Source of the DNA: Tidjanibacter sp.
GTDB lineage: Bacteria; Bacteroidota; Bacteroidia; Bacteroidales; Rikenellaceae
DNA length: 64,000 nt
Direction of reading: 5' to 3'
Assembly (NCBI GenBank): GCA_017503805.1
Contig: JAFVSJ010000017.1
Span: 62,001 to 126,000, forward strand
Position 1 is the first letter of the stretch, and each line of letters opens with the position of its first letter. The notes beneath the pieces are model-generated. The model was not told the origin of the DNA, ran no database searches, and was given only the letters and a program-made list of their open reading frames with translations. Below are positions 14,017-48,927 of the stretch, piece after piece. Both the position numbers and the translations under genes were made by a program.

Positions 14017-14046
14017 GCAACGTTTTGGGCCGCTTATGCATCCATA
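14017..14046 (+). promoter_or_regulatory. ECF-like promoter, site 1 (radical-SAM-associated lipoprotein)
   Basis: GCAACGTTTT at 14017-14026 and TGCATCCATA ending at 14046 repeat, with identical spacing, the elements before the lipoproteins at 23928 and 48857. The -35-like GCAAC and -10-like TCyATA fit an ECF sigma promoter. It lies 28 bp before the start codon. A hairpin (13981-14019) overlaps its upstream edge. Confidence 0.65.
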
Positions 14047-14074
14047 ATAATGTAACCCCTAATCACGCTCAATT

Positions 14075-14455
14075 ATGAAACGCGGAATCAAAAATCTACT
14101 CCTGAGTCTTGTAGGCTTCTCGGCAGCTCCGATGCTTACTGCCTGCTACGGCACTGCCTACGATGACTACTACCCCTATCCTACAGAGGGTGAGGACATT
14201 TGTGGCTATGTAGTAGACGAACAACTCAACCCCATCAAAGGCATTATGGTCTATTCGACCAACAACTCCAAAGATTTTACCGACGAGGCAGGCCGATTTG
14301 AACTCGTAAACGGCTTTGGCGGAATGGGCAACGAAATGGTTACGGCTACAGATGTGGATATGCAGAACAACGGAGGCGAGTTCTCCACCGAAGTGGTAGT
14401 GGCCAATCGCGACAACATCAACAACCTCTGCATCGTCTTGAGCAAGGAGGAGTAA
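14075..14455 (+). CDS. Radical-SAM-associated putative lipoprotein
   Basis: 126 aa. Signal sequence with lipobox ending LTAC (Cys about 24), then a Tyr/Asp/Pro-rich stretch YGTAYDDYYPYPTEGED. A small beta domain follows resembling a carboxypeptidase-regulatory repeat (ICGYVVDEQLNPIKGIMVYS, FTDEAGRFEL). Near the end is DVDMQNNGGEF, a motif also found in the lipoprotein at 23928. This matches the described Bacteroidetes rSAM/lipoprotein system, in which a small lipoprotein is the presumed substrate of an adjacent radical SAM/SPASM enzyme. The modification is unknown. The maturase begins 40 bp downstream and the gene has the shared ECF-like promoter. Confidence 0.82.
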   Translation: MKRGIKNLLLSLVGFSAAPMLTACYGTAYDDYYPYPTEGEDICGYVVDEQLNPIKGIMVYSTNNSKDFTDEAGRFELVNGFGGMGNEMVTATDVDMQNNGGEFSTEVVVANRDNINNLCIVLSKEE

Positions 14456-14494
14456 CAAGGTTCTACATCACCCACCATTTACCTCCAGATAGCT

Positions 14495-15571
14495 ATGGCT
14501 GACATCAAAATAGGTCTCCGAAAGAAGATTGCCCTCTCGCTCTTCGCAGGCATCAAACACGATTTGGCCCGCAAGCACGAGTTGCGAGAAATCTTCTGGG
14601 AGTCGACACTCCGTTGCAATCTCAACTGCCGACACTGCGGTAGCGACTGCCGTTCCTCTTCGGTTGTGGCCGATATGCCGGCCGAGGATTTCCTCGCAGC
14701 AATAGACAAAATCACACCTCACATCAATCCTCACAAAGTGATGGTAGTCATCACGGGTGGAGAGGCTCTTTGTCGAAAAGACCTTGAGGAGGTGGGTCGT
14801 GAGCTCCACAAACGGGGCTATCCGTGGGGCATCGTCACCAATGGTATGCTCCTAACAGCCGAGCGTATGCGTTCGCTTGTGGCTGCAGGAATGAGGGCAA
14901 TCACACTCTCTATAGATGGCCTCGAGGAGCATCACAACAACATACGACGCAATCCGCAGAGTTGGCGCAATGCCATCCGAGCGCTCGATGTAATCACCCA
15001 CACCAAAGGCATCAACTATGACGTTGTAACCTGCGTAAACAGAGAAAATTACAGCCAGCTCAACAGCCTCAAGGAGTTGTTGATAGAACACGGTTGCAAG
15101 GCTTGGCGCCTCTTCACCATCTTCCCTGTAGGTCGTGCGGCCGAGGACGAGGAGTTGCAGCTCCCCCCGACAGAGTACAGGGGGCTGATGGAGTTCATCA
15201 TTGCTACTCGCAAAGAGGGACTCATCAAGTGCAACTATGCCTGCGAGGGATTTCTCGGGGGCTACGAGGCCGAGGTGAGGGATAGCTTCTTCGGCTGTAT
15301 GGCCGGCATCGGCATCGTAGGCATCAAGGTAGACGGAGCCATATCGGGTTGCACAAGCATTAGGGCAAGTTTCGACCAAGGCAACATCTACACCGACGAC
15401 ATTTGGGAGGTATGGGACAAAAAGTTCGACTCCTTCCGCAACAGGGAGTGGGCTCGCAAGGGCGAGTGTGCCGAGTGCAAGATGTGGCGCTATTGCGAAG
15501 GCAACGGTATGCATCTCTACGACGACAACCACGAGCTACTCCACTGCAACTATCACAGACTCTGCAAGTAG
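14495..15571 (+). CDS. Radical SAM/SPASM maturase of the rSAM/lipoprotein system
   Basis: 358 aa. The [4Fe-4S] radical SAM motif is CNLNCRHC (about residues 41-48), followed by GGEALCRKDLEEVGRE and LSIDGLEEHHNNIR, typical of peptide-modifying rSAM enzymes. The C-terminal SPASM-type cluster cysteines are in FFGCMAG, GAISGCTS, GECAECKMWRYCEGNG and LHCNYHRLC. Such enzymes install thioether or carbon crosslinks, or epimerise residues, in ribosomal peptides and proteins. The neighbour lipoprotein is the likely substrate, and the lipoprotein at 23928 is a second candidate. Reaction and residues modified are unknown. A perfect hairpin terminator follows 19 bp after the stop. Confidence 0.9.
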   Translation: MADIKIGLRKKIALSLFAGIKHDLARKHELREIFWESTLRCNLNCRHCGSDCRSSSVVADMPAEDFLAAIDKITPHINPHKVMVVITGGEALCRKDLEEVGRELHKRGYPWGIVTNGMLLTAERMRSLVAAGMRAITLSIDGLEEHHNNIRRNPQSWRNAIRALDVITHTKGINYDVVTCVNRENYSQLNSLKELLIEHGCKAWRLFTIFPVGRAAEDEELQLPPTEYRGLMEFIIATRKEGLIKCNYACEGFLGGYEAEVRDSFFGCMAGIGIVGIKVDGAISGCTSIRASFDQGNIYTDDIWEVWDKKFDSFRNREWARKGECAECKMWRYCEGNGMHLYDDNHELLHCNYHRLCK

Positions 15572-15590
15572 CATCTACACATTTATCCAT

Positions 15591-15629
15591 AACAACAGCC
15601 CCGAAGCCAAATACTTCGGGGCTGTTGTT
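15591..15629. terminator. Bidirectional terminator between convergent genes
   Basis: Perfect 16-bp stem (15591-15606 with 15614-15629, loop CCAAATA) between the maturase gene and the minus-strand glycosyltransferase gene. Confidence 0.8.
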
Positions 15630-15643
15630 GTTACCAGATAAAA

Positions 15644-16651
15644 TCACCAATCGAGTTTAGAAAACTTCTTGCAACCAAGCACATATCTACCGATAATCCA
15701 ACCTCGATAGATGGTAGACGGTCTAACTCCACCCAATCCTTGGGCGCACTCACGTTTGAGCCTATATCGTGGTCGCCTACGTCTGAAATCCCTATGAGCT
15801 CTCCAAACTGCACCGGCAAAAGACCATCGGCCCGTGACGAGATAAACTCCCCACGAAAGCCAATCGAGCATCTGCCTTACTCGCAGTCGCCACATCTCTC
15901 CGTCGGGCAGGCACTTATACAACATCAGTAGCGAGTTGCGGAAATTGAGGTATATTTTGCGAGGCGAGTTATTGGGCAAGGTACCTCCACCGACGTGCCA
16001 CACGACACTCCTCGGCTCAATACCAACCTCATAACCAAGCATTTGCATACGCCAGCAGAGGTCTATCTCCTCCATATGGGCAAAGAACTCTCCATCGAAT
16101 CCTCCGAGTCTGCGAAACAAATCAGCCCTCACGACCATACAAGCGCCGCTTGCCCAGAAGAGTTTACAAGCATCATCATATTGTCCCTCGTCGTTCTCGA
16201 CGGTACCCATTATCCGCCCTCGGCAAAATGGGTAGCCGAAAGCATCTATAAATCCACCTGCCGCACCAGCATATTCAAACTTATCTCTACTGTGCCACGA
16301 CAAAATTTTGGGTTGTAGGGCACCAAGTCGAGGTTCATCAGTCATCCTCTCCACAAGCGGCTCAAGCCAACCTGCCGCAGGTTCCACGTCGCTATTGAGA
16401 AGCACCCACAAGTCGCCATCTAACTGCTCCAAGGCCCTATTGTACCCCTCTGCAAATCCGTAGTTCCTATCGAGCCCCAACCACTCTACCCCCTCGATGC
16501 CATTAGCGACTTCGCGCGACTCATCGGTCGAGCCATTGTCTGCGACAACGACCTCAACATCCGCAGCAACACTACTGCGCACCGCAGGGAGGAATCGACG
16601 CAAATAGTCGGCTCCGTTCCAATTGAGTATTACAACTTGGATTTTGGCCAT
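15644..16651 (-). CDS. Family 2 glycosyltransferase
   Basis: 335 aa. The N-terminal GT-A domain shows VVILNWNGADYL, VVVADNGSTDES, NYGFAEGYNRAL and VLLNSDVEP, where Asp-x-Asp is replaced by SDV as in rhamnosyl or similar GT2 enzymes. GGFDGEFFAHMEEIDLCWRM is the acceptor-site ED-like motif. No multi-helix membrane part is present. It probably adds sugars to surface polysaccharide or LPS. It lies 16 bp after the acyltransferase gene, which supports an envelope role; donor and acceptor are unknown. Confidence 0.92.
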   Translation of the reverse strand: MAKIQVVILNWNGADYLRRFLPAVRSSVAADVEVVVADNGSTDESREVANGIEGVEWLGLDRNYGFAEGYNRALEQLDGDLWVLLNSDVEPAAGWLEPLVERMTDEPRLGALQPKILSWHSRDKFEYAGAAGGFIDAFGYPFCRGRIMGTVENDEGQYDDACKLFWASGACMVVRADLFRRLGGFDGEFFAHMEEIDLCWRMQMLGYEVGIEPRSVVWHVGGGTLPNNSPRKIYLNFRNSLLMLYKCLPDGEMWRLRVRQMLDWLSWGVYLVTGRWSFAGAVWRAHRDFRRRRPRYRLKRECAQGLGGVRPSTIYRGWIIGRYVLGCKKFSKLDW

Positions 16652-16667
16652 TGGGGGCTATGTGTGA

Positions 16668-17615
16668 TTAATGGATCTGGGGCACTTTTCTTATCTCGAC
16701 ATCCGGCGAGTCGGGGCCATTTTTCCAACGGCGGTGTGACCAGAGCCACATCTCGGGGTTACGACGTATGACATATTCTGTGTGAGCCACATAGCGGTCC
16801 ATAATCTCAAGTTCCGATATATCCTCCACACCATCGTAGAGTTGCACAAATTCGCACTCAAAGTGGGATGGTTTAACCTTGCGGATATCGAGTGTATAGA
16901 CCATCATACCAAACTTTTTGGCATAGTTGCCCACGCCCCCAAAGAAGAGTGTCGGCTGGCCAAGAAACTCCCTCCACACCCTATCGCTCTCCTTGAAACG
17001 AGGGCGTTGGTCGGCAATAAGTCCGAGAGCCATCTGTTCACCCGCCTTGAGGTTTTTCATCACAGGGCGCGCAAGGCCGTTCATAGGTGCGACCTCCATT
17101 CCGAATCTCCGCCTAATGTAGAGCATAAAGCGGTCCATAACCTTACTGCTGAGTGGGTGGTAGACTCCAATGTTATGGTAAGGATGGTCAATGGCGTAGA
17201 CCGAGAAATACTCCCACTCGCCATAGTGTGCCAATGCCGCAATCCAATTTCGGTTGCCTATAGCCTCATCGGTCTGCTCGGCATTCGTAACCTTCATACG
17301 GCGTTTGAGTTCGGCAGCAGACATACTCGTCATATCCACAACGTCGACCATATTCTCCGAGAGCTGGTGGTAGAATTTGCATTCTATCTCTCTCCTCTCC
17401 TCCTCACTCTTCTCGGGGAAAGCCGCCGAAAGATTGGCCCTCACAACCTTGACCCTATAGTGGAGCAGTCGGTAGAGCACAAAATAGATGAAAGGAGCCA
17501 ACACTCTATAAAGCACCCAATAGGGCAGATAGCCAATCAGTTTGGCGCAACCGAGCAGCAGGTAGTAGCCCACACGCTCGGCGAAATTCATATCAGCGTT
17601 ACTCTTCTTTGACAT
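16668..17615 (-). CDS. LpxL/HtrB-like lysophospholipid or lipid A acyltransferase
   Basis: 315 aa from the ATG at 17615 (MSKKSNADMNF). A longer frame to 17663 would overlap the upstream gene and is less likely. The N-terminal membrane helix is about 20-50. The catalytic HX4E motif is HYGEWE in LAHYGEWEYFSVYAI. IADQRPRF is the substrate-binding part and RRNPEMWLWSHRRWK is the LpxL-type C-terminal motif. It transfers an acyl chain, most likely to lipid A. Together with lpxB nearby it suggests local lipid A genes, although it is in another transcript. Confidence 0.9.
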   Translation of the reverse strand: MSKKSNADMNFAERVGYYLLLGCAKLIGYLPYWVLYRVLAPFIYFVLYRLLHYRVKVVRANLSAAFPEKSEEERREIECKFYHQLSENMVDVVDMTSMSAAELKRRMKVTNAEQTDEAIGNRNWIAALAHYGEWEYFSVYAIDHPYHNIGVYHPLSSKVMDRFMLYIRRRFGMEVAPMNGLARPVMKNLKAGEQMALGLIADQRPRFKESDRVWREFLGQPTLFFGGVGNYAKKFGMMVYTLDIRKVKPSHFECEFVQLYDGVEDISELEIMDRYVAHTEYVIRRNPEMWLWSHRRWKNGPDSPDVEIRKVPQIH

Positions 17616-17646
17616 AATCCAACAAAAAGATTTGTATAGCCCTTGT

Positions 17647-19104
17647 CTACTCTTCCTGTACAACCTTCACGTTACCACTTTTGGTCCTCACCGAGAGCCA
17701 CATCCTCACCTTCTCCAAGTCAATAGGTTGCTGCTGATCCTTTGCCTTGACAATGGCGACAACCGATGTACCTTCGGCCTTGCCGTCGGCATAGGTAGTG
17801 TGTTTCGAGAGCGACAGGGAGGCGATATTATCCACAACGAGTGAGAGTTCTCGCGAAATATCTGCGCCCGAAAGGGTATCTATTGTTGTCAGCGATGAGA
17901 GGCGGCCACGCAGCTCACGAATCTGGCTATTCTTCTCGTCGATGATGTCGGCATAGCTCTTCTGCAGTTTGCCTATGTCGAGTCTTTCATCGCTATCGGC
18001 CTGTTTAACAATCAGTTCGGTTTTCGAAAGGCCATAGTCGGCAAGTTGTGCTTGAGCATTATCTATAACATCCTGCGAAAGAGGCTCTCCCACCAATCGC
18101 ACCTCCACTTTCGACTTATCGCCATCGTAGTGGTAACTCTTTTGGTAGTCGACAATCATCGTACGGTTGAATTGAAAAACCTTGCTTATGTAGCGGTCGA
18201 CATTCTCCTCAAATGACGTGCGGCGTACAATGTGAGCACCAAACAAGATGCTCGGAACTCCCACAAGCACAATAACTAATGTTATGTAGCGGGAGTTTTT
18301 CTTCTGTCTTACGGGATCAAGGATGGTCTTTTTCTCGTAGCGCAAGAAGAGCACCACAACGTAGGTCGCCACAGCAATAAACACGGTGTTAATCGTAAAT
18401 AGGTAGAGTGCGCCAAAGAAGTAATTAAAATTGCCCGTAGCCAGACCAAAACCGGCCGTACAGAGAGGAGGCATCAGGGCAGTGGCAATAGCCACACCCG
18501 ACACGACCGTAACAGCCTTATCTTTGCGTGTCTGCGCAACCATACCGGCCAAACCACCCACAAAGGCAATCAATACATCGTATGTCGTAGGCGTTGTGCG
18601 CGCAAGCAACTCACTCTGCGCTGTCGAAATGGGCGACACTAAGAAGTAGGCAGTGCTGGTCACAAGGCTGACAATCACCATCAGCAAGAAATTACGCCAA
18701 GCCGACTTGAGCATATCGAAATCATTGATACCCAGCGCAAGACCGACACCCGTAATGGGGCCCATCAGAGGCGACACAAGCATCGCACCAATGATAACGG
18801 CCGTGGAGTTCACATTCAATCCGAGCGAAGCAATGAAGATTGCAAAGATGAGCACCCAAAGGTTCATACCCCTAAAGTCAATACCCTTGCGTACCTGCTC
18901 CACCACTTCTGCTTGTGCTGCGCTATCGGCACGCAGATCGAAACGCCCCTGCATAAATTGGCGCAAGCTACGTACCATTCTCAACAAACGCATAGTCACC
19001 GCATCGCGGTGAATCCCCTCTTGGGGGCCTTGTTCTTGATTCTCGTTGGGCGTTGTATTGGGCTCAACGGATTTCTCATCATATTTGATATTCTCTTCGT
19101 TCAT
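17647..19104 (-). CDS. DUF389/TIGR00341-family membrane protein
   Basis: 485 aa from the ATG at 19104 (MNEENIKYDEKS); a frame 16 codons longer exists but lacks support. There is a charged N-terminus (about 1-85), then five or six membrane helices (about 85-290) including NSTAVIIGAMLVSPLMGPITGVGLALG, the DUF389 core. After a further helix (about 278-298) comes a soluble C-terminal domain with a coiled-coil-like stretch (DEKNSQIRELRGRLSSL). Function is not established for the family. It stands between rsmI and the acyltransferase on one strand. Confidence 0.88.
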   Translation of the reverse strand: MNEENIKYDEKSVEPNTTPNENQEQGPQEGIHRDAVTMRLLRMVRSLRQFMQGRFDLRADSAAQAEVVEQVRKGIDFRGMNLWVLIFAIFIASLGLNVNSTAVIIGAMLVSPLMGPITGVGLALGINDFDMLKSAWRNFLLMVIVSLVTSTAYFLVSPISTAQSELLARTTPTTYDVLIAFVGGLAGMVAQTRKDKAVTVVSGVAIATALMPPLCTAGFGLATGNFNYFFGALYLFTINTVFIAVATYVVVLFLRYEKKTILDPVRQKKNSRYITLVIVLVGVPSILFGAHIVRRTSFEENVDRYISKVFQFNRTMIVDYQKSYHYDGDKSKVEVRLVGEPLSQDVIDNAQAQLADYGLSKTELIVKQADSDERLDIGKLQKSYADIIDEKNSQIRELRGRLSSLTTIDTLSGADISRELSLVVDNIASLSLSKHTTYADGKAEGTSVVAIVKAKDQQQPIDLEKVRMWLSVRTKSGNVKVVQEE

Positions 19105-19192
19105 AGCCTGATATTCAGATATTTTTCTACCTTTGGCACTAAGTTTTATCATCTAAGCAGTGGGGGTATATGAGAGGTCACGACACTCTCTC

Positions 19193-19900
19193 CTACTCTT
19201 GTTCCTCGTCAATGGGATTGGTGCGACTGCGGTCGGCACCCTCCACGACGATCACAAACTCTCCCTTGGGCGGGTGGGCCTCAAAGTGGGCAATCACCTC
19301 TGAGAGAGTGCCCCTTACGGTCTCCTCAAACTTCTTCGACAGTTCGCGCGAAACGCTCACCCTCCTCTGGTCGCCAAATTGTTCGGCAAACTCTCCGAGG
19401 GCCTTCACTACACGAAACGGCGATTCGTAGAAAATCATTGTGCGACTCTCCTCCGCAAGTGCAGCAAGGCGTTTTTTGCGCCCTTTTTTCTGTGGCAAGA
19501 AACCCTCAAAACAGAATCTATCACAGGGGAATCCGCTCTGCACCAACGCCGGAACGAAGGCCGTAGCACCCGGCAGAGTCTCCACATCCAAGCCGCGCTC
19601 AAGGCAGGTACGAACCAGAAGAAAACCGGGGTCGGAGATGCCGGGAGTACCTGCATCGGAGATGAGCGCCACACTCTTTCCGGCCTCAATCTGTGAGGCC
19701 ACAAACTCGACGGTTGAGTGTTCGTTGAACTTGTGGTGGGAGTAGAGTTTGCGTTCAATGCCGTAGTGTTTGAGCAGCACCTGCGAGGTGCGGGTATCCT
19801 CGGCCAAGACAATATCGACCTCACCGAGCAGACGCACAGCGCGGTAGGTCATATCCTCGAGGTTGCCGATGGGGGTGGGTATGATATAAAGTTTTGGCAT
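19193..19900 (-). CDS. rsmI: 16S rRNA 2'-O-ribose C1402 methyltransferase
   Basis: 235 aa. It starts LYIIPTPIGNLEDMTYRAVRLL, the RsmI/YraL signature. LAEDTRTSQVLLKHYGI, ALISDAGTPGISDPG and LPGATAFVPALVQSGFP are the tetrapyrrole-methylase-fold SAM and substrate motifs. It 2'-O-methylates C1402 in the ribosomal decoding centre. It lies 19 bp after the acidic protein gene on the same strand. Confidence 0.96.
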   Translation of the reverse strand: MPKLYIIPTPIGNLEDMTYRAVRLLGEVDIVLAEDTRTSQVLLKHYGIERKLYSHHKFNEHSTVEFVASQIEAGKSVALISDAGTPGISDPGFLLVRTCLERGLDVETLPGATAFVPALVQSGFPCDRFCFEGFLPQKKGRKKRLAALAEESRTMIFYESPFRVVKALGEFAEQFGDQRRVSVSRELSKKFEETVRGTLSEVIAHFEAHPPKGEFVIVVEGADRSRTNPIDEEQE

Positions 19901-19919
19901 CTATAACTAAAAAAGTAAA

Positions 19920-20957: not shown

Positions 20958-21030
20958 AGTAGTTGTATTAAATTCGCTTTATATATCCCTCAAAAATACT
21001 AATTTTGATTCAAGAAAGCAAATTTATAGT

Positions 21031-21038
21031 TATCTTTG
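21031..21038 (+). promoter_or_regulatory. -7 promoter element for ychF
   Basis: TATCTTTG is 30 bp before the start. A TTTG at 21004-21007 is 23 bp upstream, wider than usual. Confidence 0.5.
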
Positions 21039-21068
21039 CGGACAACTTACGAAAACAGAGATATTTTT

Positions 21069-22169: not shown

Positions 22170-22221
22170 TCACCACATACTAAAGACGAACAAACACAAC
22201 TACAGAGATAAACAAAGTACT

Positions 22222-23754: not shown

Positions 23755-23777
23755 TCTACACTTGACACAAAACTCAC

Positions 23778-23820
23778 ACTGCGCTCGGACCCAGACGTAC
23801 AGTCCGGGCGTAGTTTTTTT
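23778..23820 (+). terminator. Rho-independent terminator of gltX
   Basis: 13-bp stem (23778-23790 with 23802-23814, two G-U pairs) directly followed by seven T. Confidence 0.85.
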
Positions 23821-23859
23821 AGGTTGGGGCACAAAATACAAAATAAATCACCCTTTGAT

Positions 23860-23889
23860 GCAACGTTTCGGGGTGGTTGTGCATCTATA
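23860..23889 (+). promoter_or_regulatory. ECF-like promoter, site 2 (second radical-SAM-associated lipoprotein)
   Basis: GCAACGTTTC (23860-23869) and TGCATCTATA (ending 23889), with the same spacing as the sites at 14017 and 48898. It lies 38 bp before the start codon, downstream of the gltX terminator. Confidence 0.65.
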
Positions 23890-23927
23890 AAGTAAATCCC
23901 CGACCATAACATAAACATTCAACTACT

Positions 23928-24416
23928 ATGAACAACAAATTTGTACGCTGGATTATGGCCCTGCTCGGTTTCTCGGCTGTGGCAAACTCTTGCGATGCAC
24001 CGGCTATGTACGGCTGCCCCTCGGCCGACTACAATTTCGACATCGAGGTACTCAATGCCGAGGATGACTCCCCAATCACAGGCATCCGCGTGAGCGCAAT
24101 CACAAGCAAGGAGAATATGTATTGGGACAGCACAACGGGTATGGCTACCTACGAGACTGTCACCGATACGCTCTGCCGAGGCTACACCACCTCCAATGGC
24201 AAGGTGCAACTCATCTTCAACGAGTTCCCGCTCAACGAGCACACAATTGTGGCCGACGATGTGGATGGCAGCGCCAATGGAGGAAAGTTCACCTCGGAGC
24301 GCACCACCATCACTCTCAACAATGATGACTATGATAATCCGGGTAACCACGGTTGGTATAGAGGAGAGGCATCGGCCTCGGCAACCCTAAAGCTCACTCC
24401 CACCAAAGACGAGTAG
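23928..24416 (+). CDS. Second radical-SAM-associated-type putative lipoprotein (no adjacent maturase)
   Basis: 162 aa. The signal segment ends LGFSAVANSC (Cys about 23), then MYGCPSADY, a Tyr/Pro/Asp motif like that of the lipoprotein at 14075. The domain FDIEVLNAEDDSPITGIRVSAI is an Ig/carboxypeptidase-regulatory-like strand set, and DVDGSANGGKF repeats the DVD...NGG.F motif of the other lipoprotein. It has extra cysteines (CDAPAMYGC, LCRG). By these motifs it belongs to the same family, yet no radical SAM gene is next to it; the nearest is 8.4 kb upstream. The shared ECF-like promoter links the two. Its neighbours are gltX and convergent clpB, unrelated in function. Confidence 0.78.
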   Translation: MNNKFVRWIMALLGFSAVANSCDAPAMYGCPSADYNFDIEVLNAEDDSPITGIRVSAITSKENMYWDSTTGMATYETVTDTLCRGYTTSNGKVQLIFNEFPLNEHTIVADDVDGSANGGKFTSERTTITLNNDDYDNPGNHGWYRGEASASATLKLTPTKDE

Positions 24417-24440
24417 AGGTATAAGTAGTTGATATAAACA

Positions 24441-24473: not shown

Positions 24474-24492
24474 ATTGTTTATCTACAGTGGT

Positions 24493-40971: not shown

Positions 40972-40994
40972 TTACCTAACACATTATTGAGGAC

Positions 40995-41020
40995 TGCGGC
41001 TCTTGGTTGGGCCGCAGCCC
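40995..41020 (+). terminator. 3' hairpin of DUF6562 gene, copy B
   Basis: The same 26-nt block as at 30199-30224 (opposite strand), 23 bp after the stop. The stem is CTGCGGC/GCCGCAG. No T-run follows directly. Confidence 0.6.
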
Positions 41021-41054
41021 GCAAGGTGAGTCGGGAACTCTAAAACACCCTCAC

Positions 41055-41090
41055 AGCGCCCCTGCCACTCGGTGGTGGGGGCGCTTTTTT
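41055..41090 (+). terminator. Rho-independent terminator
   Basis: 14-bp stem starting AGCGCCCC and closing GGGGCGCT (two G-U pairs, 3-nt loop) followed by six T. Confidence 0.85.
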
Positions 41091-41168
41091 GTGGGCTTTC
41101 GGAGCTCCAAATTTGGAGGTGAAAAGGTGGGCAAAACGGGGCTCGAAGCAACTTTCGCAAAGAGAGAT

Positions 41169-41199
41169 TTTGAAGTTTCAACCAAAAATAATACATTTG
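41169..41199 (+). promoter_or_regulatory. Promoter of the OPT transporter gene
   Basis: TTTG (41169-41172), 19 bp, TACATTTG (41192-41199), 41 bp before the start codon. Confidence 0.7.
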
Positions 41200-41240
41200 T
41201 AGGTTGGAAATACTTTAACCTAAATAAATTTATCTCTCCT

Positions 41241-43241
41241 ATGTCGGATAACAAACAAACTCCTAAACTCGCAGAAAACGCCTACAGGCCTCTGAATCAG
41301 GGCGAAGAGTATGTGCCCGTAATGAAGCCAACTGACAAACCCAAAGAGGTCACACCCTACTCTATAGGTATGGGCGTGCTGATGGCTATCATCTTCTCCG
41401 CAGCGGCAGCATACCTCGGACTCAAAGTAGGTCAGGTATTCGAAGCCGCCATCCCCATCGCCATCATCGCCGTAGGCGTGGGCACTATGACCGGCAAAAA
41501 GAATATGCTCGGACAGAATGTCATCATCCAGAGCATCGGTGCCTCCTCGGGCGTAATCGTGGCAGGCGCTATCTTCACGCTCCCCGCACTCTACATCCTC
41601 GGACTCGAGGCTCAATTCTACCAAGTATTCCTCTCGTCGCTGCTCGGCGGTCTGCTCGGTATCGTGCTCCTCATCCCCTTCCGCAAATACTTCGTCAAGG
41701 ATATGCACGGCAAGTATCCCTTCCCCGAGGCAACAGCTACCACCGAGGTGCTCGTCAGCGGTGAAGGACAAAAAGGTCAGGCCAAACTCCTCGCTGTGAG
41801 CGGTCTCATCGGTGGTCTCTACGACTTCGTAGTCAGCACCTTCGGACTCTGGACCGACACCATCTCCACACGCATCACCACTTGGGGCACTATGCTCGCC
41901 GACAAGTTCAAAACCGTATTCAGCATCAACACCTCCGCAGCCGTACTCGGTCTGGGTTACATCATCGGTCTGAAATATGCCGCATTCATCTGCGCAGGTT
42001 CGTTCGTCGTATGGTTCCTCATCGTGCCTATGGTCGGCTCCTTCGAGAACAGCATCGACCCCACAGCGCTCATCTCCATACTCGGCATCACCGATGCCAA
42101 AATCCTCGCCAACCCCGAGCTCATCTTCACCCCCGAGAACCTCTTTGCTTACATCGGTAAGCCCCTCGGCATCGGTGGCATCGCTATGGCAGGTATCATC
42201 GGCATCATCCGTCAGGCCGGCATCATCAAACAGTCGCTCGGTATGGCTGTGAGCGAGCTCAAGGGCAAAAAGAACTCCGGCGACACCAAGCGCACCGATA
42301 AGGACATCAGTATGAGAACCATCCTCGCAATCCTCATTGCAGCTCTCGTATGCGTGCTCGTATTCTTCCGCGTGGGTGTACTCGACAGCTGGTGGCTCTC
42401 GATCGTGGCTCTGCTCGTGGTATTCGTGATCACCTTCCTCTTCACCACCGTGGCAGCCAACGCTATCGCCATCGTGGGTAGCAACCCCGTGAGCGGTATG
42501 ACTCTGATGACCCTCCTCCTCTCCTCGCTCGTACTCGTGAGCGTAGGTCTCGAGGGCGAAAGCGGTATGACCGCAGCGATGATTATCGGCGGCGTAGTCT
42601 GCACCGCACTCTCGATGGCTGGCGGCTTCATCACCGACCTCAAAATCGGCTACTGGATTGGTACCACTCCCAAGCATCAGCAGGCGTGGAAATTCCTCGG
42701 CACATTCGTGTCGGCTGCAACCGTTGCAGGTGTGATGATTATCCTCAACAAGACCTACGGTTTCACAGGTGAGGGCGCACTCGTAGCTCCCCAGGCCAAC
42801 GCTATGGCAGCCGTTATCAAACCCCTTATGACCGGCGGCACCACCCCCTGGGTACTCTACTTTGCCGGCGCAGCTCTCGCACTGATTCTCACTATGATAG
42901 GCGTACCCGCACTCCCCTTTGCACTCGGTATGTTCATCCCCTTGCACCTCAACACTCCTCTGCTCGTGGGTGGTATCGTAAGCTGGTTCGTTTCGAGCCG
43001 TTCGAAAGACAAAGAGGTCAACAAAGCACGCAACAGCCGCGGTACGCTCATCGCCTCGGGCTTCATCGCAGGTGGCGCACTTATGGGCGTAGTGAGCGCA
43101 ATTCTCAAGTTTGCCGGTGCAGATTGGTTTATGGGTGAGTGGTACGCATCTAATGCCGCACAGTGGCTCGGTGTTGCCGCCTACGTTGCCATCATCGGCT
43201 ACTTCATTTGGGACACCCTGCGCGCCAAAAAAGAGGCATAG
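41241..43241 (+). CDS. OPT-family oligopeptide transporter
   Basis: 666 aa from the ATG at 41241 (MSDNKQTPKLAENAYRPL). The frame is open upstream through the promoter and terminator, so the longer version is wrong. There are about 14-16 membrane helices. The family motif SNPVSGMTLMT lies in the centre (about residue 415), and the N-terminal helix pair has AAAAYLGLKVGQVFEAAIP. OPT proteins import oligopeptides or metal chelates with protons. Peptides are the likely cargo here because a tripeptidase gene (pepT) follows 119 bp downstream and other peptidases lie nearby. Confidence 0.94.
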   Translation: MSDNKQTPKLAENAYRPLNQGEEYVPVMKPTDKPKEVTPYSIGMGVLMAIIFSAAAAYLGLKVGQVFEAAIPIAIIAVGVGTMTGKKNMLGQNVIIQSIGASSGVIVAGAIFTLPALYILGLEAQFYQVFLSSLLGGLLGIVLLIPFRKYFVKDMHGKYPFPEATATTEVLVSGEGQKGQAKLLAVSGLIGGLYDFVVSTFGLWTDTISTRITTWGTMLADKFKTVFSINTSAAVLGLGYIIGLKYAAFICAGSFVVWFLIVPMVGSFENSIDPTALISILGITDAKILANPELIFTPENLFAYIGKPLGIGGIAMAGIIGIIRQAGIIKQSLGMAVSELKGKKNSGDTKRTDKDISMRTILAILIAALVCVLVFFRVGVLDSWWLSIVALLVVFVITFLFTTVAANAIAIVGSNPVSGMTLMTLLLSSLVLVSVGLEGESGMTAAMIIGGVVCTALSMAGGFITDLKIGYWIGTTPKHQQAWKFLGTFVSAATVAGVMIILNKTYGFTGEGALVAPQANAMAAVIKPLMTGGTTPWVLYFAGAALALILTMIGVPALPFALGMFIPLHLNTPLLVGGIVSWFVSSRSKDKEVNKARNSRGTLIASGFIAGGALMGVVSAILKFAGADWFMGEWYASNAAQWLGVAAYVAIIGYFIWDTLRAKKEA

Positions 43242-43255
43242 AGCAGACACACAAT

Positions 43256-43306
43256 AGGCTCCAGAGCCCTCCGTCGGGCCACGGCAAGGCGGAGGACAAC
43301 GAGCCT
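43256..43306 (+). terminator. Stem-loop between the OPT gene and pepT
   Basis: Nested arms AGGCTC/GAGCCT (43256-43261, 43301-43306) and CCTCCG/CGGAGG (43268-43273, 43289-43294). There is no T-run, so it may be a processing or attenuator element rather than a full terminator. Confidence 0.4.
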
Positions 43307-43360
43307 ACAAAGTAGTTTTCATAGAACAACGCCAAAGAAATAATACAGACAAATATTTAT

Positions 43361-44578
43361 ATGGAACTCCAAGAACGATTTCTGAAATATGTCGCCTTCG
43401 ACACGCAGAGCGACGAAAACAGCATCACCTTCCCCTCCACCGACAAGCAGCTCGTGTTGCTCCGCGCCCTCAAAGAGGAGATGGAGGCTATGGGTATGAC
43501 CGAGGTGACAATGGATGAGCACGGCTATGTTATGGGCTCCATCGAAGCATCCGAAGGCTACGAGGATAGGCCCGTAATCGGTTTCCTCTCGCACGTAGAC
43601 ACCTCGCCCGATATGAGCGGTGCCGCCATCAGGCCACAGATTATCCACAACTACAACGGCGAGGATATCGTACTCAACGAGGAGGTGACAATGAGAGTTG
43701 CAGACTTCCCCGAACTCAAATTCTTCGAGGGACACACCCTCATCACCACCGATGGCACCACCCTCCTCGGTGCAGACGACAAGGCTGGCGTGGCAGAGAT
43801 TATGACCGCAGCCGAGTATCTGATTAAGCATCCCGAGGTTAAGCACGGCAAAATCCGCGTAGGATTCACTCCCGACGAGGAGATTGGTCGTGGCGTGGAC
43901 TACTTCAACGTAGAGGCCTTCGGTGCCAAGTTTGCCTACACCGTAGATGGCGGTATGGAGGGAGAGTTGGAGTATGAGAACTTCAACGCCGCCAGCGCAA
44001 AACTCACCATCGACGGCCGCAACATCCACCCCGGCTCGGCCAAAGACAAGATGGTCAACGCCATCCAGCTCGCAATGGAGGTGAACTCTCTCCTGCCCCC
44101 CGTAATGCGTCCCGAGCACACCGAAGGCTACGAGGGTTTCTTCCACCTTGTGGGCATCAAAGGCGAGGTTGAACAGGCCGAGATGTCCTACATCATCCGC
44201 GACCACGACAGGGCAAAATTCGAGGAGAAAAAGGCTCTTATCGAGAAAGCAGTCGCATACGTCAATGCCAAACACGGTGGCGAGTATGTACACCTGCTGC
44301 TCAAAGACCAATATTATAATATGCGCGAGATGGTAGAGCCTCATCCCGAAATCATCGAGAAGGCTATGGAGGCTATGGAAGAGGCCGGCGTGAAACCCAT
44401 CGTCAAGCCCATCCGTGGCGGTACCGATGGTAGCCGACTCTCCTATATGGGACTCCCCTGCCCCAACCTCTTCACAGGCGGCATGAACTTCCACGGCAAG
44501 TTTGAGTACGTTTCGCTCGACAGTATGTTCCGTGAGGTACAGACCATCGTCAACCTCGTGAAACTCTGGGCAAAATAG
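43361..44578 (+). CDS. pepT: Peptidase T (tripeptide aminopeptidase, M20B)
   Basis: 405 aa. Zinc ligands and catalytic residues are visible: GFLSHVDTSPD (His, Asp), LLGADDKAGVAEIM (bridging Asp), FTPDEEIGRGVDYF (catalytic Glu and Glu ligand), the YTVDGG stretch, and the final His in FTGGMNFHGKFEYV. It removes the N-terminal residue from tripeptides in the cytoplasm. Paired with the OPT transporter upstream it forms a peptide import and breakdown unit. Confidence 0.96.
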   Translation: MELQERFLKYVAFDTQSDENSITFPSTDKQLVLLRALKEEMEAMGMTEVTMDEHGYVMGSIEASEGYEDRPVIGFLSHVDTSPDMSGAAIRPQIIHNYNGEDIVLNEEVTMRVADFPELKFFEGHTLITTDGTTLLGADDKAGVAEIMTAAEYLIKHPEVKHGKIRVGFTPDEEIGRGVDYFNVEAFGAKFAYTVDGGMEGELEYENFNAASAKLTIDGRNIHPGSAKDKMVNAIQLAMEVNSLLPPVMRPEHTEGYEGFFHLVGIKGEVEQAEMSYIIRDHDRAKFEEKKALIEKAVAYVNAKHGGEYVHLLLKDQYYNMREMVEPHPEIIEKAMEAMEEAGVKPIVKPIRGGTDGSRLSYMGLPCPNLFTGGMNFHGKFEYVSLDSMFREVQTIVNLVKLWAK

Positions 44579-44629
44579 CCATTCGTAGTGGACACAACAG
44601 AAGACACTAACCCTTAATTGAAGAGAACA

Positions 44630-45277
44630 ATGAAAAGGCTGATAGTAGTAGTGTGCGTGGTGATGGCAACCATTTCGTCCGCACGCGCGCAATTTGACCT
44701 CGGCTCACTCTTCGGCAAAGTCAAAGAGGTGGCAGCAGAGGCCGCCGGTGATGCGATAGATGAGGTTATACCCGAGGAGTTGCAACAGCTGCTCGGCATA
44801 GCCATCCCCGAGTTGGAGATTCCCGGCACTTGGAGCTATGTAGACCTAGCTGTAGAGTTCACGAGCGAGGATGCACTCACCAATGCAGGCGGTGTGGTTG
44901 CAGCCGAGACTATCAAACAAAAGGCTACTCCACTGCTCGCAAAAGTGGGCATAAAAAAGGGAGCCTTCAACTTCACCTTCGAGGAGGATGGCAAAGTGAC
45001 CACCACACTTGCAGGCAGAAAGGTCGAAGGCACTTGGATCTACGACAAAGAGAGTGAGAACGTTACGCTCGGCATAGGTGACAAGCATTTCACCACCCGT
45101 ATGACCGAGAATGGCGAACACATCAACATCCTCTTCAAGGCCGACAAGTTGCTCGAGCTGGTAAAGACCATCAGCACCAAATCGAGCAACACCACCCTCA
45201 CCGCCATCGGTGCCATCGTCAAAAGCTACGATGGTATGAACCTCGGATTTGAGTGTGAGAAAGTGAAAGTAGACTGA
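44630..45277 (+). CDS. Exported DUF4923-type protein
   Basis: 215 aa from the ATG at 44630; a TTG-started extension by four codons is unlikely. Signal peptide 1-20 (ISSARAQ). The rest is a single domain with GTWSYVDLAVEFTSEDALTNAGG, FTFEEDGKVTTTLAGRKVEGTWIYDKESE and a C-terminal DGMNLGFECEKVKVD, the pattern I associate with DUF4923 of Bacteroidales. It resembles a lipocalin-like beta barrel. Function unknown; likely periplasmic. It lies between pepT and the C1B peptidase, all plus-strand. Confidence 0.78.
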   Translation: MKRLIVVVCVVMATISSARAQFDLGSLFGKVKEVAAEAAGDAIDEVIPEELQQLLGIAIPELEIPGTWSYVDLAVEFTSEDALTNAGGVVAAETIKQKATPLLAKVGIKKGAFNFTFEEDGKVTTTLAGRKVEGTWIYDKESENVTLGIGDKHFTTRMTENGEHINILFKADKLLELVKTISTKSSNTTLTAIGAIVKSYDGMNLGFECEKVKVD

Positions 45278-45321
45278 TTATTAATTTCATACATTAACCA
45301 ATAACTAATTATCCAAAACAA

Positions 45322-46530
45322 ATGAAAAAATTTATCCTTGTGCTCTGCGCTCTTGCAACCGTATTCAGCCTTGAGGCAGCACCCAAAAAGAACAAACAGA
45401 AAGAGGAGGAGGGCTTCAAATTCACAGTTGTGAAAGAGAACCCCATCACCAGCATCAAAAACCAGAACCGTGCAGGTACCTGCTGGTGCTACTCTGCACT
45501 TGCATTCATCGAGTCGGAGTTGCTCCGTATGGGCAAAGGCGAGTATGACTTCTCGGAGATGTATCTCGTGCATAACACCTATCTCGACCGCGCCGACAAG
45601 GCTGTCCGCACCCACGGCGACATCTCCTTCGCGCAGGGCGGCTCGTTCTACGATGTTATCTACGGTATGGAGCAGTTCGGCCTTGTTCCCGAGGCAGAGA
45701 TGCGTCCAGGCGTGATGTATGGCGAGACCTTGAGCAACCACAACGAGCTTTCGGCAGTGAGCGATGCAGTAGTTGCAGCCATCGCCAAAGGTAGGCACCG
45801 CAGCCTGCAGGTAGACGAGAACGGTCAGCCCCTCTGGAAGAAAGCCATTGCAGCTGTTCACGACATCTACCTCGGCGTTCGCCCCGAGAAATTTGTTTAC
45901 GAGGGTGTGGAGTATACTCCCGCTTCGTTCTACGCTTCGACCGGCCTCAACGCAGATGACTACATCTCGCTGACCAGCTACACCCACCACCCCTTCTACG
46001 AGTCGTTCGTACTCGAGATTCAGGACAACTGGCGCTGGGCCGAGTCCTACAACCTCCCCATCGACGAGCTCCTCGAGGTATTTGACTACGCTATCGACAA
46101 TGGCTACACCGTAGCTTGGGGTAGCGACGTGAGCGAGGACGGCTTCACCCGCGACGGTATCGCAGTTATGCCCGACGTGGCTAAAGCACAGGAGCTCAGC
46201 GGCTCGGATATGGCACGTTGGCTCAAACTCTCGCCCGCCGAGAAGAAACTCACCACCAAACCTCAGCCCCAGAAATGGTGCACTCAGGAGGAGCGTCAGA
46301 TCGCTTACGACAACTGGGAGACCACCGATGACCACGGTATGCTTATCTATGGTAAGGCAGTAGACCAGGAGGGTACCGAGTATTATATGGTGAAGAACTC
46401 GTGGGGTGAGAGCGGCAAATACAACGGCATCTGGTATGCTTCGAAGGCATTTGTACGCTACAAAACTATGAACATCATCGTTCACAAAGATGCCATTCCC
46501 GAGGCTATCCGCACCAAACTCGGTCTCTAA
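45322..46530 (+). CDS. C1B cysteine aminopeptidase (bleomycin hydrolase family), exported
   Basis: 402 aa with a signal peptide (1-20) and a short lysine-rich stretch. The papain-like catalytic triad is visible: Cys in NQNRAGTCWCYSALAF, His in TTDDHGMLIYGKAV, Asn in YMVKNSWGESGKYNG. The long insertions and length match bleomycin-hydrolase-type aminopeptidases (PepC/BlmH) rather than plain papain. Family members trim N-terminal residues from peptides. Export suggests periplasmic peptide digestion, in line with the S46 peptidase and OPT transporter. Followed by a strong terminator. Confidence 0.92.
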   Translation: MKKFILVLCALATVFSLEAAPKKNKQKEEEGFKFTVVKENPITSIKNQNRAGTCWCYSALAFIESELLRMGKGEYDFSEMYLVHNTYLDRADKAVRTHGDISFAQGGSFYDVIYGMEQFGLVPEAEMRPGVMYGETLSNHNELSAVSDAVVAAIAKGRHRSLQVDENGQPLWKKAIAAVHDIYLGVRPEKFVYEGVEYTPASFYASTGLNADDYISLTSYTHHPFYESFVLEIQDNWRWAESYNLPIDELLEVFDYAIDNGYTVAWGSDVSEDGFTRDGIAVMPDVAKAQELSGSDMARWLKLSPAEKKLTTKPQPQKWCTQEERQIAYDNWETTDDHGMLIYGKAVDQEGTEYYMVKNSWGESGKYNGIWYASKAFVRYKTMNIIVHKDAIPEAIRTKLGL

Positions 46531-46570
46531 TAGCACCCTCTCGGAATAGTATCCGACCACAAGTAAAATC

Positions 46571-46605
46571 CAACGCGGCAGAACAATCTGCCGCGTTGTT
46601 TTTTT
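46571..46605 (+). terminator. Rho-independent terminator of the C1B peptidase gene
   Basis: Perfect 12-bp stem CAACGCGGCAGA/TCTGCCGCGTTG, loop ACAA, then seven T. Confidence 0.9.
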
Positions 46606-46623
46606 AATGGCGAGAAAGTTGTA

Positions 46624-46653
46624 TTGGAGTTTCGGGTTTAGTTTGTATCTTTG
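46624..46653 (+). promoter_or_regulatory. Promoter of the serine dehydratase gene
   Basis: TTGG (46624-46627), 18 bp, TATCTTTG (46646-46653), 37 bp before the start codon. Confidence 0.6.
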
Positions 46654-46690
46654 CGACGGTTAGTTTAGGAAAAATAGAACATCAAAGCGT

Positions 46691-47893
46691 ATGAAATCAA
46701 TCAGAGATATATTCGTGACAGGCAAAGGCCCCTCGAGTAGCCACACTATGGGCCCTCGCAAAGCCTCACTCCGTTTTCTGGAACAGCACAACGACTGCGA
46801 CTCCTTCCGCGTAACCCTCTACGGCTCACTTGCCGCTACGGGCAAAGGCCACCTTACGGACGTGGCCATCGAGGAGGTATTTGAGCCCGCCAAAAAGCTC
46901 GAACTTCTGTGGAGACCACAAGAGTTCCTCCCCTATCACCCCAATGCGATGAAGTTCGAGGCTCTCGACAGTGAGGGTAAGACCATCGCAAGCAACATCG
47001 TCTACAGCGTGGGCGGTGGCAGCATTGTGGTCGAAGGAGAGCAGCCCAGCCCCGACGACGACATCTACCCGATGAGCACAATGACCGAGATTATGGAGTG
47101 GTGCAACAATACGGGCCGCTCCTATTGGGAGTATGTATTCCAGCACGAGGATAGCCACATCAAAGAGTTTCTGCAGGAGGTGTGGAACAATATGCGCAGG
47201 GCTGTCGAGAACGGCATCTCCAACGAGGGAGCACTTCCCGGCCCTCTGCATCTGCGTCGCAAGGCAGCAAGCTACTATGTGCGTTCGCGCGGCTACAAGG
47301 ACAACCTGCGCACGCGCGGCCTCCTCTTTGCCTACGCTCTTGCCGTGAGCGAGGAGAATGCCTCGGGTGGTACGGTGGTGACAGCTCCCACCTGCGGCTC
47401 GAGCGGCATTGTCCCGGCCGTACTCTATCAGTTGCAAGAGGAGTATGGATTTAGCGACACGCAGATTGTGCGCGCACTTGCCACCGCAGGACTCATCGGC
47501 ACCATCGTCAAGGCCAACGCATCGGTTTCGGGTGCCGAGGTAGGTTGTCAGGGCGAGGTGGGCGTAGCCTGCGCAATGGCTGCTGCCGCTGCAAGTCAAC
47601 TTATGGGCGGCTCGCCTGCACAGACCGAGTATGCCGCCGAGATGGCTCTGGAGCACCACCTCGGTATGACCTGCGACCCGATGTGTGGCCTTGTGCAGAT
47701 CCCCTGCATTGAGCGCAACGCTATGGCTGCCGCACGAGCCATAGATGCACAGATATATGCCTTCTACACCGACGGTAGCCACCGAGTACCCTTCGATGAT
47801 GTTGTGAGCGTGATGAAACGCACCGGCCACGACATCCCCTCGCTCTACAAGGAGACCTCGCAGGGCGGCCTCGGCAAACTGAAAATACAATAA
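46691..47893 (+). CDS. sdaA: L-serine ammonia-lyase, iron-sulfur single-chain type
   Basis: 400 aa. The beta domain begins FVTGKGPSSSHTMGPRKAS, and the alpha domain carries APTCGSSGIVPAVLY and DPMCGLVQIPCIERNAM, whose cysteines bind the [4Fe-4S] cluster. The enzyme converts L-serine to pyruvate and ammonia. Together with the peptidases and peptide transporter upstream it points to amino acid fermentation. It has its own promoter and terminator. Confidence 0.95.
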   Translation: MKSIRDIFVTGKGPSSSHTMGPRKASLRFLEQHNDCDSFRVTLYGSLAATGKGHLTDVAIEEVFEPAKKLELLWRPQEFLPYHPNAMKFEALDSEGKTIASNIVYSVGGGSIVVEGEQPSPDDDIYPMSTMTEIMEWCNNTGRSYWEYVFQHEDSHIKEFLQEVWNNMRRAVENGISNEGALPGPLHLRRKAASYYVRSRGYKDNLRTRGLLFAYALAVSEENASGGTVVTAPTCGSSGIVPAVLYQLQEEYGFSDTQIVRALATAGLIGTIVKANASVSGAEVGCQGEVGVACAMAAAAASQLMGGSPAQTEYAAEMALEHHLGMTCDPMCGLVQIPCIERNAMAAARAIDAQIYAFYTDGSHRVPFDDVVSVMKRTGHDIPSLYKETSQGGLGKLKIQ

Positions 47894-47908
47894 TCCACCA
47901 CACAACAA

Positions 47909-47934
47909 AGGGAGCCTCGGAGGGCTCCCTTTTT
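47909..47934 (+). terminator. Rho-independent terminator of sdaA
   Basis: AGGGAGCC, 6-nt loop, GGCTCCCT, then TTTT, 15 bp after the stop. Confidence 0.8.
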
Positions 47935-47960
47935 CATTTATATTAAGCGAGTTAAGCAGA

Positions 47961-48857
47961 CTATTCGATCAGAGCAAAGTGGTAGGCATAATATCCGTCA
48001 TCGTAGACATCTACGAGTCGTAGTTCATCACCATTGCGGCAAACACGGGTAAGTCCACCACCAAAGAAACCACCCTCTCCCATCTCCAAGCAACCCGTTG
48101 CAGGATTGTAGACGTAGGTATCGTTATAGGCTTCGGGCTCACTATTATCATAACCCGACCTGAGTGACAAGAAACCACCATTCTCATCGAAACTGATTTT
48201 CCAATCTATAATCTGTGTATCGATGTTATTACGCACCACCTCCCCATCGGCAGAGTGCATACTCACAGCCACATATTGCCACGAGGTGCCCACCAAGGGG
48301 TCGGTTGGCGAGGGCTCGGGAAGCTCTCTGGCGGCTATCTGCTCGGGGGTGGCAGCCTCGGCAAATGTGATATCGGAGTGGCGGCCACGAATGAGTTTAT
48401 AGCGATAGTAGCTCACAACAAAGTCACCAGGTGGCACATCATCCTGGGTTATATTGGTGTTGTGCATATATAATTCGAGGTGATTGTCGTCTATGACATC
48501 GAAATCGCAGTCGAAAATCACACCCTCGGCCGAGAGAGTCATCACCATAGTGTAGTGACCATACTGCGAGCAACGGAATGAGTAGAGTGTGAAATACTGA
48601 CCATAGTAGTCATAGGTCGACATAGTGGCCAAGTCGTTGTCGTAGAAAGAGAAATAATAGGGTTCGTCGAAGAGTTCGGCAGGGAGGGTATTCTCGGTAT
48701 TGCCCACAGCCATAGTCATCTCATAGACAGTCCAAGTGTCAATAAGTGCTGCGGGCATCTCGGGTGCATCGGGCTGTTCGGATGTGGAGTCATCAGTGCG
48801 GTCGCAAGCAACAAAGGCCAAGCAAAGCAAGAGAGCAAAAGTGTAGAATCTTTTCAT
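47961..48857 (-). CDS. Lipoprotein with two lipocalin-like halves
   Basis: 298 aa from the ATG at 48857 (MKRFYTFALLLCLAFVACD); three more upstream codons are possible. Lipobox FVAC (Cys18), then an Asp/Glu/Ser-rich linker. Two halves follow, each opening like a lipocalin-type beta barrel: ALIDTWTVYEMTMAVG (about 37) and PLVGTSWQYVAVSMHS (about 185), with matching cysteine-free strand patterns. I do not recognise a named family. It has the same ECF-like promoter as the two radical-SAM-associated lipoproteins, so it is likely part of the same envelope response. It is divergent from lysS. Confidence 0.75.
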   Translation of the reverse strand: MKRFYTFALLLCLAFVACDRTDDSTSEQPDAPEMPAALIDTWTVYEMTMAVGNTENTLPAELFDEPYYFSFYDNDLATMSTYDYYGQYFTLYSFRCSQYGHYTMVMTLSAEGVIFDCDFDVIDDNHLELYMHNTNITQDDVPPGDFVVSYYRYKLIRGRHSDITFAEAATPEQIAARELPEPSPTDPLVGTSWQYVAVSMHSADGEVVRNNIDTQIIDWKISFDENGGFLSLRSGYDNSEPEAYNDTYVYNPATGCLEMGEGGFFGGGLTRVCRNGDELRLVDVYDDGYYAYHFALIE

Positions 48858-48897
48858 AGCGGTCAAGTGAATTAGTTGTCAAGTGTTAGTTCTAATC

Positions 48898-48927
48898 TAT
48901 AGACACATAAGCGAGTAGAAACGTTGC
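48898..48927 (-). promoter_or_regulatory. ECF-like promoter, site 3 (two-domain lipoprotein)
   Basis: On the minus strand GCAACGTTTC (48927-48918) and TGTGTCTATA (ending 48898) have the same spacing as sites 1 and 2; the central CGCTTATG also matches site 1. It is 40 bp before the start codon. Confidence 0.65.

Follow-up and report, generated by a model that had tools for sequence, protein, structure and literature searches.

What stands in front of three lipoprotein genes that lie far apart in a stretch of DNA from the gut bacterium Tidjanibacter sp., and which protein reads it? The stretch, called the window below, is 64,000 nucleotides (nt) long and is part of contig C51 of a metagenome-assembled genome (MAG) of 1.25 Mb, which has 53 contigs and is 59% complete. 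The three sites of interest lie at 14017..14046 and 23860..23889 on the forward strand and at 48898..48927 on the reverse strand, and they have the look of promoters for an extracytoplasmic function (ECF) sigma factor. Judged from sequence, they very probably mark the starts used by a single control protein for membrane stress, which would turn on its own gene, a group of surface lipoproteins and, in relatives, a putative small regulatory RNA. We consider it highly probable that they are promoters of a single autoregulated ECF sigma factor, encoded at C42:14250-14789 together with a barrel anti-sigma, that envelope damage would release this sigma, and that it would then transcribe genes of TIGR04134 lipoproteins, of the TIGR04133 radical S-adenosylmethionine (SAM) enzyme and of other exported proteins. 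The sites, their genome-wide targets, the promoter dialect shared by sigma and targets, and the gene order are computed results; we infer that this sigma is the reader, that envelope stress is the signal and that the enzyme modifies the lipoproteins.

Promoter sites and the sigma factor that probably reads them

The first-pass annotation of the window had claimed three sites at these positions and strands in one register, and all three are there. Their common reading is GCAACGTTT-N8-TTRTG-YR-TCYATA. The first site has the -35 core GCAAC and the -10 core TC-CATA, and the other two are matches to the pattern. A search for the GCAACGTTT and TCYATA boxes separated by gaps of 10 to 25 returned three matches in the 64 kb and none in 100 dinucleotide shuffles. 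In the whole MAG, GCAACGTTT-N15-TCYATA has exactly five perfect sites, and the reversed-pattern control has none. Chance, or a repeat element, might have produced such similarity. We found no point in its support, and the shuffles, the empty reversed control and the fact that the N8 and the flanks vary among the window sites all oppose it, so that its probability is vanishingly small.

The sites end 28, 38 and 40 nt before the ATG of their genes (sites 1, 2 and 3, respectively), which agrees with the claimed distance of 28-40 bp to lipoprotein starts, and a lipobox (TAC, NSC, VAC) was seen by eye in all three products. A rough lipobox expression matches 6 of the 52 window genes; it omits the gene at 23928, takes in at least one doubtful gene and serves as a background guide only. 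The first gene (14075..14455, forward strand) encodes a TIGR04134-like lipoprotein (28.4 bits, cut-off 39.8) with LVGFS in its signal peptide and a mature start of CYGT. About 40 nt further on lies the gene of a radical SAM/SPASM enzyme of family TIGR04133 (14495..15571, forward strand; 565.5 bits, cut-off 425), and the two genes probably share one operon. The second lipoprotein gene (23928..24416, forward strand) belongs to TIGR04134 (85.1 bits, cut-off 39.8); its product has LLGFS in the signal peptide and MYGCP after the lipidated cysteine. The third (47961..48857, reverse strand) encodes a lipoprotein without known family, for which Pfam and NCBIfam gave only matches below their cut-offs. 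It has an unproven lipocalin-like look, and in G094, a relative, the gene of a homologue is preceded by a promoter of this kind as well. Because two of the three window lipoproteins are of the TIGR04134 type, the one at 14075 weakly so, the set is more than a group of scattered lipoproteins.

A genome-wide motif scan had been suggested as a check. Of the five perfect matches in the MAG, four precede lipoprotein genes and one precedes an ECF sigma gene. The two matches outside the window are C36:3676, in front of the gene of a 141-residue lipoprotein with a Lipocalin_4 match, and C42:14198, which lies 22 nt before the ATG of the ECF sigma gene C42:14250. With up to three mismatches allowed, two more sites appear (control: none). 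One, C49:18017 (two mismatches), precedes the gene of a secreted protein; the other, C48:1807 (three mismatches), lies 50 nt before a lipoprotein gene, the product of which resembles, by eye, a lipoprotein of G103 with a perfect site. The earlier proposal of a lipoprotein regulon, putatively of envelope-stress type, is supported. Outside the window the sites also precede genes of other exported proteins and, in relatives, a noncoding sequence.

The proposal that the sites are ECF promoters is likewise supported on the level of sequence, and one genome match precedes an ECF sigma gene. The motif could instead be bound by an activator or a repressor, for instance as a direct repeat TGCAAC...TGCATC, and not be a sigma recognition site. 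TGCAAC and TGCATC do stand 21 nt apart in many sites, and a dimer might bind direct repeats placed in this way, but the second TGC is not conserved (sites with GTGTGTC, AACGTC and TTTGTC occur), whereas TC and TATA mostly are. Moreover, the genes follow in the same orientation, starting 15-74 nt downstream wherever a gene is present in the seven relatives described below, and the motif precedes a sigma gene. ECF promoters usually have AAC in the -35 and a GTC-like -10, which also counts against a binding site of this sort. As far as sequence tells, we reject the activator site and hold the whole alternative to be improbable.

The sigma encoded at C42:14250-14789 has Sigma70_r2 and Sigma70_r4_2 domains. 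Its closest named relatives, at no more than 76% identity, are from Tidjanibacter MAGs (Rikenellaceae) of ruminant guts. The genes that come after it encode, in order, a 436-residue anti-sigma with Pfam barrel matches, a NigD-like lipoprotein and a VWA/YfbK lipoprotein; the second of these matches NF051862 (NigD1/NigD2) weakly (22.9 bits, cut-off 60) and has no Pfam match. Exactly one match to the sigma (E ≤1e-25) is present in 22 of 23 congeneric genomes, the exception being G092, which is 85% complete. In each of the 22 genomes the open reading frame (ORF) that follows has 422-476 codons, one of them apparently cut by the end of the locus, and by visual inspection of the protein ends it encodes the same kind of anti-sigma. 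Among the 80 best relatives of the sigma that were kept, which do not include those of Bacteroides fragilis and Bacteroides thetaiotaomicron, an ATG ORF of 370-480 codons follows the sigma in 52, and GCAAC-N17-20-TC lies within 160 nt upstream of the sigma in 42 (1.7% in mononucleotide shuffles).

An AlphaFold2 model was made of the anti-sigma copy at locus L157, where the sigma is 76% identical (429 residues; 45 sequences; mean predicted local distance difference test score, pLDDT, 72.5; predicted template modelling score 0.54). It has helices at residues 4-42, one more helix at residues 62-86, a tether of low confidence at about 89-180 and strands at 262-427, and the C-terminal barrel has a pLDDT >90 over most of its length. 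The top Foldseek matches are outer-membrane barrels, Legionella porins first and OmpA among the others (OmpA: E 7e-6, template modelling score 0.62 by target and 0.29 by query). The predicted architecture contains all the parts of an anti-sigma of this kind, that is, cytoplasmic helices, one membrane helix, a disordered tether and a C-terminal outer-membrane barrel. With its inner-membrane helix and its outer-membrane barrel, the 436-residue protein would sense envelope damage through the barrel and release the sigma. Once free, the sigma would transcribe the operon that encodes it, the genes of the TIGR04134 lipoproteins along with that of the TIGR04133 enzyme, and genes of further exported proteins.

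We see just two further ECF-like genes in the MAG, and their products are 22% and 21% identical to the C42 sigma. The latter lies in the window (2125..2682, reverse strand) and is a FecI-like ECF sigma gene beside a FecR-like gene. No GCAAC...TC site was found on the own strand of either gene at its locus (3.5 kb were read around 2125). It had been noted earlier that this local factor need not be the one responsible. Its low identity, its FecR neighbour and the lack of the site on its strand lead us to reject it as reader.

A different ECF sigma, perhaps one encoded in the 41% of the genome that the MAG lacks, could read the sites and have the EcfO-like sigma gene merely as one of its targets. 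The incompleteness of the MAG and the existence of sigma cascades speak for it. On the other side, autoregulation is usual for ECF factors, and there is evidence from small changes in the promoter between genomes. The pattern TGCAAC-N18-RTCNATA, which leaves the bases after TGCAAC free, was searched in the 23 genomes of the genus and gave 74 matches in 19 of them (reversed control: 5). The four bases after TGCAAC are GTTT in G000 (5 of 6 sites) and G103 (7 of 7), ATTT in G094 (9 of 11) and G096 (4 of 4), and mostly AAAA in G053 (8 of 11) and G107 (6 of 11). In each of these six genomes the promoter of the sigma itself carries the four bases of its genome. When the five sigma promoters found by the same pattern are omitted from the count, 34 of 45 target sites agree with the sigma promoter of their own genome, against a permuted mean of 12.9 and a maximum of 27 in 100,000 permutations, a figure that is optimistic because the genomes are related. 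Even so, targets and sigma clearly drift together in the six genomes. This dialect, the single sigma match in 22 of 23 genomes and the GCAAC...TC before 42 of the 80 best relatives all run against a different reader, to which we give only a small chance; the C42 sigma is the preferred candidate. In region 4 of the sigma, the copies of the ATTT dialect (L075, L076) have SRTQ and those of the GTTT and AAAA dialects (L073, L074, L077, L078) have SRSQ or CRSQ, in what are few genomes.

Radical-SAM lipoprotein operons as recurring targets

In the family, the strict pattern with R at its sixth base has 55 matches in 22 of 120 genomes, and its reversed control has 4, in 4 genomes. Fifty-three sites were read in seven genomes (G000, G053, G092, G094, G096, G103 and G107), and their classes were assigned by eye from N-termini. 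Forty precede genes of exported proteins or lipoproteins, six the sigma gene, five a conserved noncoding sequence and one another ORF-less stretch, and one precedes nothing. Clustering of the 72 ORFs after 86 sites placed TIGR04134-type lipoproteins first (14 sites in 10 genomes). Next come outer-membrane-like proteins (7) and, with 6 each, the sigma and a long lipoprotein. The same promoter also stands before genes of exported proteins that look serpin-like by eye (L053 in G094, L243 in G053). A family of small membrane proteins or lipoproteins under the promoter occurs in four genomes (L242, L249, L070, L072); the members that were read have CYEPxxECYDPAP after the predicted lipobox and are perhaps another enzyme substrate.

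TIGR04133 is present in 14 of the 23 genomes of the genus, and in 11 of these (G000, G053, G080, G092, G096, G103, G107, G019, G037, G071 and G094) a lipoprotein gene upstream of it has GCAAC-N19-TC. In the order, it was found in 92 of 393 sampled genomes, at 111 places. From these, 58 upstream regions were taken: of the 66 best-scoring places we set aside three that belong to the family of the window, three close to the end of a contig and two that were second copies. A YG-type lipoprotein was recognised in 44. The motif GCAAC-N19-TC.[TA] lies within 130 nt in 12 of these 44 operons outside the family, and the 12 represent 11 of the 34 families. Among other ORFs in the same regions, 2 of 195 have it. 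Mononucleotide shuffles gave 0.2%, and other spacings from 12 to 27 gave 0 to 4 of 44. The N19 spacing had been taken from the genus beforehand, and the last base of the motif was fixed after the data had been seen.

Gene order adds a second line of evidence. In Butyricimonas sp. Marseille-P3923 (L216) the sigma gene (3986-4507), the barrel anti-sigma gene (to 5643), two TIGR04134 genes (79.8 and 82.8 bits) and the TIGR04133 gene (595 bits) are consecutive and overlap or nearly touch, and TGCAACGTTTGGATAAAAAAGTGCATCTTG stands before the sigma gene. G225, a genome of another family (f107), has the same order with one lipoprotein. Since it does not depend on the promoter, this order is independent evidence that the sigma and the radical-SAM system work together.

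Several observations weigh against the proposed regulon. The lipoprotein at 14075 falls below the TIGR04134 cut-off, yet it adjoins TIGR04133 and clusters in BLAST with members of TIGR04134. The relaxed patterns also match by chance, as their reversed controls reveal (4 against 55 and 5 against 74). The dialect test covers six clear-dialect genomes, which are not independent of one another; G083 and G019 (four mixed sites each) and all genomes with three or fewer sites were excluded. No upstream site is seen in 38 of the 80 best sigma relatives, and further ECF factors may be missing from a MAG that is 59% complete. In the genus, the operons of G076 and G086 have no recognisable site, nor does the radical-SAM locus of G098, though a separate TIGR04134-like gene of G098 has one. 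In the 1300 nt upstream of 23 radical-SAM loci of a related genus (g22) no site was found in promoter position; in two of its genomes (G104, G108) a site stands before a lipoprotein gene farther upstream, beyond that stretch, so that other sites of this genus may have been missed. Elsewhere in the order, 32 of the 44 operons lack the motif, and an ECF gene of this kind lies beside the radical-SAM operon in only 1 of the 58 upstream regions (G225).

What would the enzyme do with the lipoproteins? From the loci fetched, 57 distinct TIGR04134-type ORFs were chosen by lipobox and YGxP; because YGxP was used to pick them, only the count of LGF is informative. LGF occurs within the first 40 residues of 38 of the 57 (49 in a looser form) and in 0 of 23 other regulon lipoproteins. 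More than one YG motif, of a looser kind, is present in 8 of the 57. Lipoproteins of this type, such as the window protein at 23928 and those at L108, L109 and L120, share LGF or a similar motif in the signal peptide, and some members of the type have two or three copies of a YG motif close to the mature N-terminus. Repeated motifs of this sort occur in radical-SAM peptide substrates. TIGR04133 may act at the YGxP near the lipidated cysteine, and the signal peptide may serve as its leader.

Candidate noncoding RNA in relatives

In five relatives of the window's MAG (G053, G094, G096, G103 and G107), an ORF-less site is followed by a conserved sequence that measures 128-131 nt and has three stems and a terminator (L027:1531-1659, L044:1789-1918 and L050:1726-1856; on the reverse strand, L141:187-314 and L245:1549-1677). 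It is a candidate noncoding RNA. The folding of each of the five sequences beats all of 200 shuffles (z -3.1 to -5.2). Changes on both sides of a pair occur at 13 of 33 pairs, against a shuffled mean of 7.4, and none of 500 shuffles reached that number; the same five sequences that were used for these counts had also supplied the structure. Further pair types are not above chance (153 of 500), and the first stem has no two-sided change. Rfam gave no match over the noncoding sequence in the five loci at E ≤1. In four of the five relatives it lies near a gene that by eye is greA.

The first loop complements the stretch directly in front of the ATG of the sigma gene, as GAGAGAAAGGC in G053, G103 and G107 and with one G-U pair in G096. 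Among 1036 control leaders, the number whose pairing with the loop is equally good or better is 1 for G103, 1 for G107, 3 for G053, 6 for G096 and 28 for G094. Duplex energies computed with all of the first 90 nt are unspecific, with 28-287 of the 1036 control leaders equally strong or stronger, and only the loop is specific. The control leaders were not cleared of sigma leaders, and, being 60 nt long, they include promoter DNA. Given these limits, feedback of the RNA on the sigma mRNA is put forward as a hypothesis, which G094 hardly supports.

A model of the RNA recognises only its five founders strongly (106-138 bits). Thirty-four further matches (25-34 bits) are probable matches to terminators and were rejected; GCAAC-N19-TC stands in front of none of the 15 loci that were read. 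A search of the window's MAG for the noncoding sequence gave no match, an absence of little weight, as a GreA query, run with no positive control, was empty there too. In G094, contig C58 (L049) has a second site without a convincing ORF at 16243-16273 on the reverse strand; the stretch downstream ends in a strong GC hairpin and a T run and is perhaps another noncoding RNA. Locus L027 also contains a TPP riboswitch at 2273-2376, above the gathering score.

Comparison with known systems and significance

Barrel anti-sigmas are known from other Bacteroidales. EcfO-Reo of Bacteroides fragilis and Phocaeicola vulgatus has an anti-sigma that is described as reaching from the cytoplasm to the outer surface and as ending in a C-terminal barrel; it controls a regulon of surface lipoproteins and is thought to respond to envelope stress (PMC13114119, PMC9308784). 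Compared by architecture, the system described here resembles it in the order of ECF sigma gene and barrel anti-sigma gene and in its lipoprotein regulon. The effectors differ: there they are NigD proteins and a glycosyltransferase of the lipopolysaccharide region, and the term "radical SAM" is absent from both texts (PMC13114119, PMC9308784). The Das1-Dma1 and Das2-Dma2 pairs (ECF21) of B. thetaiotaomicron have the same anti-sigma architecture, with an anti-sigma domain, one membrane helix, a disordered tether and a C-terminal barrel, and Das1 raises the expression of nigD1 (PMC13088901). The targets here are led by TIGR04134 instead, and that paper contains neither "motif" nor "radical SAM" (PMC13088901). 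The "non-canonical" -30/-10 promoter of SigW-1 and SigH-1 in B. thetaiotaomicron is also of ECF type and from Bacteroidales, but the accessible portion of its description gives a TGTT element near the -10 and not GCAAC...TC (PMC12596196).

In the literature searched, supplementary tables being outside its scope, neither the TIGR04133 and TIGR04134 accessions nor the family name was found. Nothing relevant was found there on the motif or on radical-SAM lipoproteins under ECF control, though Ndamukong 2013 and Pardue 2024 may hold an earlier mention. The nearest papers have, in their available parts, nothing relevant on the motif or on a link between ECF factors, radical-SAM enzymes and lipoproteins (PMC10434189, PMC8939145). 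TIGR04133 and TIGR04134 are hypothetical equivalogs of NCBIfam, and the window proteins at 14495 and 23928 score over their curated cut-offs. Because EcfO-Reo and Das-Dma are already known, the kind of system is known as well; new are the likely identity of the sigma, the code of the promoter and its dialects, the observation that radical-SAM lipoproteins recur more than any other target, and the candidate RNA.

The sigma-E factor of Escherichia coli is an envelope-stress sigma that drives envelope genes together with the small RNAs RybB and MicA. The present system is similar in its putative stress sigma, its envelope genes and, in relatives, a terminator-ended noncoding sequence. It differs in that this sequence matches no Rfam family and is predicted to pair with the mRNA of the sigma. 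A Bacteroidota counterpart of sigma-E is conceivable, if rather doubtful, in which a barrel-gated ECF sigma would drive lipoproteins modified at YGxP by a co-transcribed radical-SAM enzyme, with the LGF signal peptide as leader, along with a small RNA whose first loop would pair with the 5' end and start region of the sigma mRNA for negative feedback.

With the proposed sigma, the TIGR04133/TIGR04134 pair gains a regulator, a testable condition and a promoter code. The promoter makes regulons of this kind predictable from sequence alone in uncultured relatives. With the candidate RNA, it would become possible to test whether envelope-stress sigmas of the Bacteroidota use small RNAs as sigma-E does.

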